Below are positions 50,650 through 52,332 of a stretch of 64,000 nt of DNA, piece after piece; within the stretch, counting starts at the first letter, position 1; each line of letters starts with the position of its first letter. Below the pieces are notes generated by a model that was not told the origin of the DNA, did not search any database, and was given only the letters and a program-made list of their open reading frames with translations. Origin of the DNA: Phycisphaeraceae bacterium (lineage in GTDB: Bacteria > Planctomycetota > Phycisphaerae > Phycisphaerales > Zrk34); assembly GCA_028282805.1 (NCBI GenBank), contig JANQHD010000010.1:62001-126000 (forward strand), written 5' to 3'. Both the position numbers and the translations under genes were made by a program.

Positions 50650-52332
50650 TTATTCGGTGGGCTCGCCCTGCGCGGGCGGCGCGTCTTCGTCCTGCACCTT
50701 GACCACGCGCGCGTCGAACAGTTCCGCGGCCTGCCTGACCAGCGGCAGGTTCATCGCCTCGTTGCGCGCCTGCGGCGACAGCCGATCGGGCGCAGCGGGC
50801 GCCGGCGCGGCGGGCTCGTCTTCCTCGCCCGCCGGCGGCTCGATGGCGACCTTCACCGCGGTACCCGCCAGCTCGCTGAGCAGGCTGGCCAGCGGCTCGC
50901 TCTGCCCCTTGGCAAAACCGAACAACGACCGGTGGCCCGGCAACAGCCGCAGCGTTACCGTCTGCCCGGCGACGGCGACGTATTGCAGCTTGCCCATCCA
51001 CTCGTAACGCGGGTTGTCGCCGCCCCACCGCATCGCCGCACGCCACAGGTCCGGCCCGATGTCGACCTTCGCGGCGGGCGCAGCCGGCGCGGGGGTTTGA
51101 GTTTTGTCATTTGAGCTTTGGTTTTCCGCCCGCCTAGCGGGCGGTGCGGCTATTTTTTTTTTAACCGCGCCCGGCGCGCCGGCGGCCAGCGCCGCGGCGT
51201 CGGCGTAGTGCTCGGCCAGCGCCAAACGCGCCAGCGCCGCGTCGAGCAACGCGCGCGGCGTGCTCGAGCCCTTCGCGTTGCGCGCCACGTTCTCCATCAG
51301 CGCGATCGCGTGCACCAACGCGGGCGTGTCGAACTTCTTTGCCTGCTCGGCGAGCTGTTGCTTGGTCGCCTCGTCGAGTTCGACCAGCTCGGTCTGCGCC
51401 CCGCACGCGCCGACGACCAGCAGCTCACGCAGGTGCTCGATAAGCGTTTGCGTGAACTGGTCCTGGCTGATGCCGCGCCGCATCATCTCGTCGGCGGCCC
51501 CGAGCGTCGCGGCCACGTCGCCCCCGGCGATGGCGTCGCCGAGCTGCACGACGACCTGCCGGTCGGGCAGGCCGAGCATCTGCTCGAGCAGCTTGCCGGT
51601 CAAAGGGCTGACGCCGATGGCCAGCAGCCGGTCGAGCAGCGACAGCGCATCGCGCATCGAGCCGTTGCCGAGGCGCGCGATCTCGAAGACCACCTGCGGC
51701 TCGGCTTCGACCTGCTCGGTCTTGAGCACCGCCTCGACGTGCTCGGCGATCCGGCCCGCGGGGATGTTGCGGAAGTCGAACCGCTGGCACCGGCTCTGGA
51801 TCGTCGGCAGCACCTTCTCCGGCTCGGTGGTGCACAGAATAAACTTCAGGTGCGCCGGCGGCTCCTCCATCACCTTCAGCAGCGTGTTGAACGCGTCCTT
51901 GGTGAGCATGTGCACTTCGTCGATGATGTACACCTTGAACCGCGCGTTGTCGGTCGGGGCGAGCCCGGCGTTGGCGATCAACTGGCGGGCGTCTTCGACC
52001 GAGCGGTTGGAGGCGCCGTCGATCTCGATGACGTTCAGGTCGTCGCCGCGCATGATCGCCTCGGCCATGCGCCGCTGAACTTCTTCGGGCGGATACCCGT
52101 CGGCGTCGGTCGCCGGGGGGCAGTCGCTGATGGTGGCCGGGGCGTTGAGGGCGCGGGCGAGCAGGCGGGCCATCGACGTCTTGCCCACCCCGCGCGTGCC
52201 GGTGAACAGGTACGCGTGGTGCACCCGCCCCGCCTCGATCGCGTTGCGCAGCGTCTGGGCGATCGGCTCCTGTCCGATGACATCGCCGAACGACTGGCTG
52301 CGGTAGCGACGGGCTAGTGCGGTGTACGCCAT
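50650..52332 (-). CDS. dnaX: DNA polymerase III subunits gamma and tau
   Basis: Clamp-loader ATPase. The 560-residue tau has Walker A GTRGVGKTS, Walker B-like VYIIDEVHM and a sensor-1 arginine (CTTEPEKVLPTIQSRCQRF), then the clamp-loader domain III and a tail. The zinc-binding four-cysteine module found near residue 65 in E. coli DnaX is lost: only one cysteine remains (ISDCPPATDADG). At codons 391-393 the gene has three AAA codons and an A, with a hairpin downstream (51126-51162). A -1 shift would end after six more codons, yielding a 399-residue gamma. Confidence 0.97.
   Translation of the reverse strand: MAYTALARRYRSQSFGDVIGQEPIAQTLRNAIEAGRVHHAYLFTGTRGVGKTSMARLLARALNAPATISDCPPATDADGYPPEEVQRRMAEAIMRGDDLNVIEIDGASNRSVEDARQLIANAGLAPTDNARFKVYIIDEVHMLTKDAFNTLLKVMEEPPAHLKFILCTTEPEKVLPTIQSRCQRFDFRNIPAGRIAEHVEAVLKTEQVEAEPQVVFEIARLGNGSMRDALSLLDRLLAIGVSPLTGKLLEQMLGLPDRQVVVQLGDAIAGGDVAATLGAADEMMRRGISQDQFTQTLIEHLRELLVVGACGAQTELVELDEATKQQLAEQAKKFDTPALVHAIALMENVARNAKGSSTPRALLDAALARLALAEHYADAAALAAGAPGAVKKKIAAPPARRAENQSSNDKTQTPAPAAPAAKVDIGPDLWRAAMRWGGDNPRYEWMGKLQYVAVAGQTVTLRLLPGHRSLFGFAKGQSEPLASLLSELAGTAVKVAIEPPAGEEDEPAAPAPAAPDRLSPQARNEAMNLPLVRQAAELFDARVVKVQDEDAPPAQGEPTE
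51126..51162 (-). promoter_or_regulatory. Recoding/slippage site in dnaX
   Basis: Minus strand: ten A (51162-51153) read as AAA AAA AAA A, an 8-base spacer, then the perfect stem CCGCCCGC/GCGGGCGG (51144-51126, loop of three). In the -1 frame a TAG lies in the hairpin loop; in the +1 frame TAG follows the run immediately. Compare the E. coli and Thermus dnaX frameshift sites. Confidence 0.8.

Follow-up and report, generated by a model that had tools for sequence, protein, structure and literature searches.

The window, a 64-kb stretch from a draft genome of 56 contigs, carries on its minus strand a dnaX gene (50650-52332) encoding subunit tau of DNA polymerase III in a single open frame of 560 codons. 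The product matches TIGR02397 with 361.9 bits (curated cut-off 250, E 3.7e-108), and the Pfam profiles PF13177, PF22608 and PF12169 (delta2/AAA/gamma3), which represent the AAA+ domain, the ATPase lid and domain III, all score above cut-off. The AAA+ domains and domain III form the part that tau and gamma would have in common (residues 1-377 according to the Pfam limits; 51202-52332, minus strand). PF12169 ends at residue 377, shortly upstream of a run of ten A (A10), which thus lies directly behind domain III, at the expected end point of a gamma product. The remaining part (50650-51152, minus strand) is the tau-only C-terminal region absent from gamma, and a tau C-terminal profile, built with the window sequence included, matches frame 0 of the window at 2.4e-42. 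Downstream of dnaX, a pyroglutamyl peptidase gene, ybaB, recR and rpoN follow in the same direction. The pyroglutamyl peptidase gene (Peptidase_C15; 50087-50644, minus strand), situated between dnaX and ybaB-recR-rpoN, starts 5 nt past the dnaX stop, and the two genes are possibly translationally coupled. Upstream, a PEP-CTERM protein gene (52573-53445, minus strand) is separated from dnaX by a strong terminator-like hairpin (52490-52511). Among named records, the closest are metagenome genomes of Phycisphaerales with 55-56% identity, with closer ones possibly lying outside the comparison; the window most likely belongs to Phycisphaerae, Planctomycetota.

On the minus strand, the site reads GCG GTT AAA AAA AAA ATA GCC GCA CCGCCCGC-TAG-GCGGGCGG. 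An initial annotation had described ten A after codon 390, followed by an 8-base spacer and a perfect 8-bp GC stem, and the sequence bears this out. The run (51153-51162) covers codons 391-394, ending with the first letter of ATA, lies in phase 0 and has homologous runs in members of the class. The spacer TAGCCGCA (51145-51152, 8 nt) separates it from a hairpin (51126-51144) with arms at 51144-51137 and 51133-51126 and a loop of 3 nt, which is a putative stimulator and is not conserved. A TAG in the +1 frame (51150-51152) follows 0 nt behind A10, and a TAG in the -1 frame (51134-51136) lies 16 nt behind it. The latter TAG forms the hairpin loop and follows N-S-R-T-A-R, as annotated. The -1 frame, reached by a net gain of one A or by a ribosomal -1 shift, ends with ...VKKKNSRTAR and gives a gamma of 399 aa. 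The +1 frame, reached by a net loss of one A, stops immediately and gives a product of 393 aa ending with VKKK, so that the suggestion of a 399-residue gamma from either slip holds for the -1 frame only.

Regarding local RNA features, an in-frame A_AAA_AAG is absent from the window site, which is in phase 0 and has a T after the run, leaving A_AAA_AAA as the only possibility; the distance from the P-site codon to the stem is then about 12 nt. Stems located 11-12 nt from the P-site codon hinder ribosomes and A-site binding in vitro (PMC7282821). A Shine-Dalgarno-like stimulator was not found upstream of the site (anti-SD pairing energy -2.9, z +1.1), and an Rfam search around the site yielded no family at gathering score and nothing relevant at lower scores. 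In a predicted fold, the sequences on either side of the A run pair with each other (GCGGUUA/UAGCCGC, 51145-51166, minus strand) and place the run in a loop. Such a putative run-closing hairpin is not a general feature of loci with nine or more A (A9+), where it is no stronger (mean -5.81) than with shuffled flanks (-5.71); the window ranks fourth of 87.

The comparison covered dnaX from 60 genomes of the same order including that of the window, from another 47 genomes of the class and from 10 named contigs, most of which belong to Phycisphaerales; two contigs ending short of the site were excluded. A slip site is found behind domain III in all 117 usable loci of what is apparently the class Phycisphaerae. 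Most sites are runs of A9-A12, some are A7 or A8, and seven are GGGAAAA or CCCAAAA heptamers, which were located by inspection next to the frame-0 stop and not by blind search. Loss of the run in close relatives, named earlier as a refuting result, was not observed, since the single congener (L031) retains A10, followed by a +1 stop after 1 nt and a -1 stop after 14 nt. In other classes of the phylum, A9 or A10 is present in 8 of 20 sampled dnaX genes. The A7 loci of the order (e.g. L034, L040, L045, L047) have an in-frame A_AAA_AAA; A_AAA_AAG does not occur among them, which may be related to a tRNA-Lys(CUU) being encoded separately. In one genus (L036, L039, L044, L052) the site is a GGGAAAA heptamer with a -1 frame that is open for just 206-233 nt and has no recognisable tau tail; tau may be short or diverged in this genus.

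The arrangement of stop codons can distinguish between two mechanisms. Ribosomal -1 frameshifting requires a stop in the -1 frame alone, whereas polymerase slippage populates all frames and therefore requires stops in both. Of the 67 genes with A9+ and tau in frame 0, 60 have stops in both wrong frames within 35 nt, compared to a mean of 7.3 and a maximum of 16 in 300 codon shuffles of the part downstream of the run. In the A7 genes with tau in frame 0, the -1 frame is closed in 7/7 and the +1 frame in 2/7. Taking all loci together, both unwanted frames are closed within 35 nt in 79/87 A9+ loci versus 3/29 shorter sites. After correction for kinship, six independent pairs with good support are available, of which a mean of 5.6 show the link between long run and double closure (median p 0.03 in a sign test), and in most pairings none of the six disagree. 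In genes that reach tau only by a shift (the reversed layout, see below), long runs are followed by a stop in the third frame after 1-101 nt, and sites of A7 or less after 58-721 nt (p 8e-8, relatedness included). The two types also differ in phase and in downstream structure. All 27 sites of A7 and shorter (A4) occupy phase 2, which provides the necessary in-frame heptamer, while long runs occur in all three phases. Hairpins are mostly lacking at long-run loci and strong at short sites (mean z -0.14 versus -1.6, p 1.4e-4, with A8 counted as long). The number of tRNA-Lys types was considered as a switch between the mechanisms and provisionally set aside, as the genome of the window encodes both tRNA-Lys(CUU) and tRNA-Lys(UUU) and, among the pattern matches listed, both types are apparently present in short-site genomes as well; the tRNA argument therefore does not seem to separate the classes.

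The initial annotation had left the choice between a ribosomal and a transcriptional mechanism undecided, and the comparative pattern favours the latter for the window. Its site is of the long-run type (A10 in phase 0, a stop at 0 nt and another at 16 nt, neither A_AAA_AAG nor a Shine-Dalgarno-like element) and belongs to a genome with both lysine tRNAs, as in Thermus; transcriptional slippage is the best explanation for it. Judged from these sequence features, A10 is probably a programmed transcriptional-slippage site. RNA polymerase would slip on the ten A and produce dnaX mRNAs with 9, 10, 11 or more A. Messages that are unchanged, or altered by three A, would encode the 560-residue tau, and the remaining ones would lead the ribosome to one of the two stops within 0-16 nt, resulting in a gamma of 393 or 399 residues that consists of domains I-III without the C-terminal part of tau. 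The run, the two stops, their conservation in the class, the lack of other coding runs this long and the different design of short-site relatives are read directly from sequence; the occurrence and frequency of slipping, and a gamma protein that serves in the clamp loader, are inferred.

The hairpin raises the question of a ribosomal contribution. It has been considered that polymerase slippage yields most of the gamma while a lineage-specific hairpin adds ribosomal -1 shifting, which would account for a site that combines double stops of the slippage type with a hairpin of the ribosomal type. This combined mechanism is rather unlikely, since the hairpin is confined to a single lineage. The window is the only one of the 87 A9+ loci with a perfect 8-bp stem within 45 nt, so that the conserved design suggested earlier applies to the run and the two stops but not to the hairpin, which was rejected as a conserved stimulator. 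The 64-kb window contains 28 perfect 8-bp stems with loops of 3-8 nt, or about 0.013 per 30 nt, which makes the stem less striking than the A run; at this rate of roughly 1% per 30 nt, one stem in 87 loci equals the chance expectation. The hairpin was also rejected as a repeated genomic element because it is present in a single copy. It may add some ribosomal shifting or be accidental, and together with the in-frame A_AAA_AAA at about 12 nt it may leave room for a ribosomal share.

Slightly less likely still is ribosomal -1 frameshifting as the only mechanism, in which ribosomes would shift on A_AAA_AAA with the 8-bp hairpin as stimulator and produce gamma as in E. coli from a homogeneous mRNA. 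The perfect stem 8 nt past the run (downstream folding z -2.3) and the -1 stop 16 nt past it are consistent with this mechanism, as is the in-frame A_AAA_AAG found in 23 long-run relatives with tau in frame 0. However, such shifting leaves the close +1 stop unexplained, both in the window and in 62 of the 67 long-run genes with tau in frame 0 (null 20). Neither does it account for the free phase of the long runs or for three relatives with tau in the +1 frame. As regards the stimulators, the stem at about 12 nt from the P-site codon is not conserved, an element resembling a Shine-Dalgarno sequence is missing at the window site, and A_AAA_AAA is weaker than A_AAA_AAG in E. coli (PMC5009743).

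The run might also represent neutral lysine codons in a linker, with tau as the sole product. The sequence between domain III and the tau tail is indeed variable, but this explanation is very improbable in view of the rarity of the run. In the 64-kb window, A9 is expected 0.01 times according to dinucleotide shuffles, and a pattern search of the 3.9-Mb genome found A9+ in four places, of which dnaX alone reaches A10 and alone lies inside a gene. The flanks of the other three, read directly, are GC-rich inverted repeats, and these runs resemble terminator tails outside genes. Moreover, the dnaX of the window otherwise prefers AAG for lysine (17 AAG and 4 AAA, three of the latter within the run), double stops far exceed those in codon shuffles, and 41 relatives are unable to make tau without a shift at this position. 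A homopolymer error in sequencing or assembly, conceivable in a draft of 56 contigs, has a negligible probability because A10 leaves frame 0 open for full-length tau and dozens of independently sequenced genomes, including some of one or two contigs, have A9 or A10 at this position too.

The layout of the window, with tau in frame 0, is found in the majority of the relatives. In the reversed layout, present in 41 loci, frame 0 encodes gamma and ends at a stop 1-23 nt behind the site, and tau requires a shift. The tau tail of these genes is encoded in the -1 frame in nearly all cases and in the +1 frame in three, namely L018 (A12), L051 (A9) and L172 (A10), where it is out of reach for a ribosomal -1 shift. 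Provided that their run lengths are correct, these three loci are good test cases for slippage. The tau-tail profile matches the shifted frame in most reversed loci; it gave no match in the four short-heptamer genes of one genus, L024 and L197, for which the length of the open frames served to assign the tau frame. A maximum-likelihood tree calculated from the dnaX part upstream of the site, obtained by a quick search and with many weakly supported forks, requires about 21 changes of layout and 9 changes of slip class, compared to at least 27 and at least 22 for shuffled labels. Fewer changes than with shuffled labels indicate that layout and slip class are inherited, yet change often. Homopolymer sequencing errors may account for single layouts or run lengths in individual relatives; genomes consisting of one or two contigs (G033, G036, G039) have the reversed layout as well. 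On balance, it appears that within one class slippage on A runs and hairpin-assisted heptamers (A_AAA_AAA, G_GGA_AAA, C_CCA_AAA) have replaced each other repeatedly, with about 21 changes of the default product, so that mechanism and polarity drift but a shift is always retained. In this class two lysine tRNAs seem to be usual, and its ribosomal A7 sites consist of A_AAA_AAA instead of A_AAA_AAG as in E. coli.

The importance of gamma has long been disputed. A two-product device is present in every examined dnaX of the class and has been rebuilt repeatedly, which suggests that selection acts on the pair of products rather than on any one mechanism. The comparative series around the dnaX of the window is unusually rich, and within the class, slippage-type and ribosomal-type sites can be compared between close relatives in one gene. 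The simple rule of whether one or both wrong frames are closed could tell the mechanisms apart in other genes. No paper on dnaX slip sites of Phycisphaera or Phycisphaerae was found in the open-access literature, where the swapping of mechanism and polarity within a class and the one-frame versus two-frame stop rule also seem to be undescribed.

Among known systems, the closest is the dnaX of Thermus thermophilus, for which transcriptional slippage was described by Larsen et al. 2000 (according to PMC1088944 and PMC5009743). The window has the Thermus-type arrangement of at least nine A behind domain III with tau in frame 0 (A10 and 560 codons) and nearby stops in both other frames (0 nt in +1, 16 nt in -1). 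Both genes encode tau in one open frame with a long A run (A9 in Thermus), close both other frames shortly behind it, and occur together with two tRNA-Lys types, which have been proposed as a reason for slippage in Thermus (Atkins et al. 2016, PMC5009743). Gamma is made by slippage in Thermus, whereas slippage in the window is putative and read from the sequence. Unlike in Thermus, a strong hairpin follows the run of the window, and the run is located about 70% along dnaX compared to seven-eighths in Thermus. The dnaX of E. coli resembles that of the window in encoding tau in frame 0 and in having a hairpin behind the slip site, and in both a -1 shift would lead to gamma. Analysed by the same method, it has A6G in phase 2, A_AAA_AAG, a -1 stop at 3 nt, a +1 stop at 35 nt and a hairpin, and thus resembles the short-site class of relatives. 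It also has a Shine-Dalgarno stimulator (PMC5009743). The window differs from it by A10, phase 0, a +1 stop at 0 nt and the lack of such a stimulator. A two-frame dnaX in which A10 lies behind the shared domains and tau is made by a shift was reported in the GeneTack study in 2013 (PMC3711429), and 41 relatives of the window in its class share this reversed layout, while the window itself is Thermus-type with tau in frame 0. All three arrangements, slippage as in Thermus, shifting as in E. coli and the reversed two-frame layout with A10, are thus already published, and the window adds a probable case of the first.
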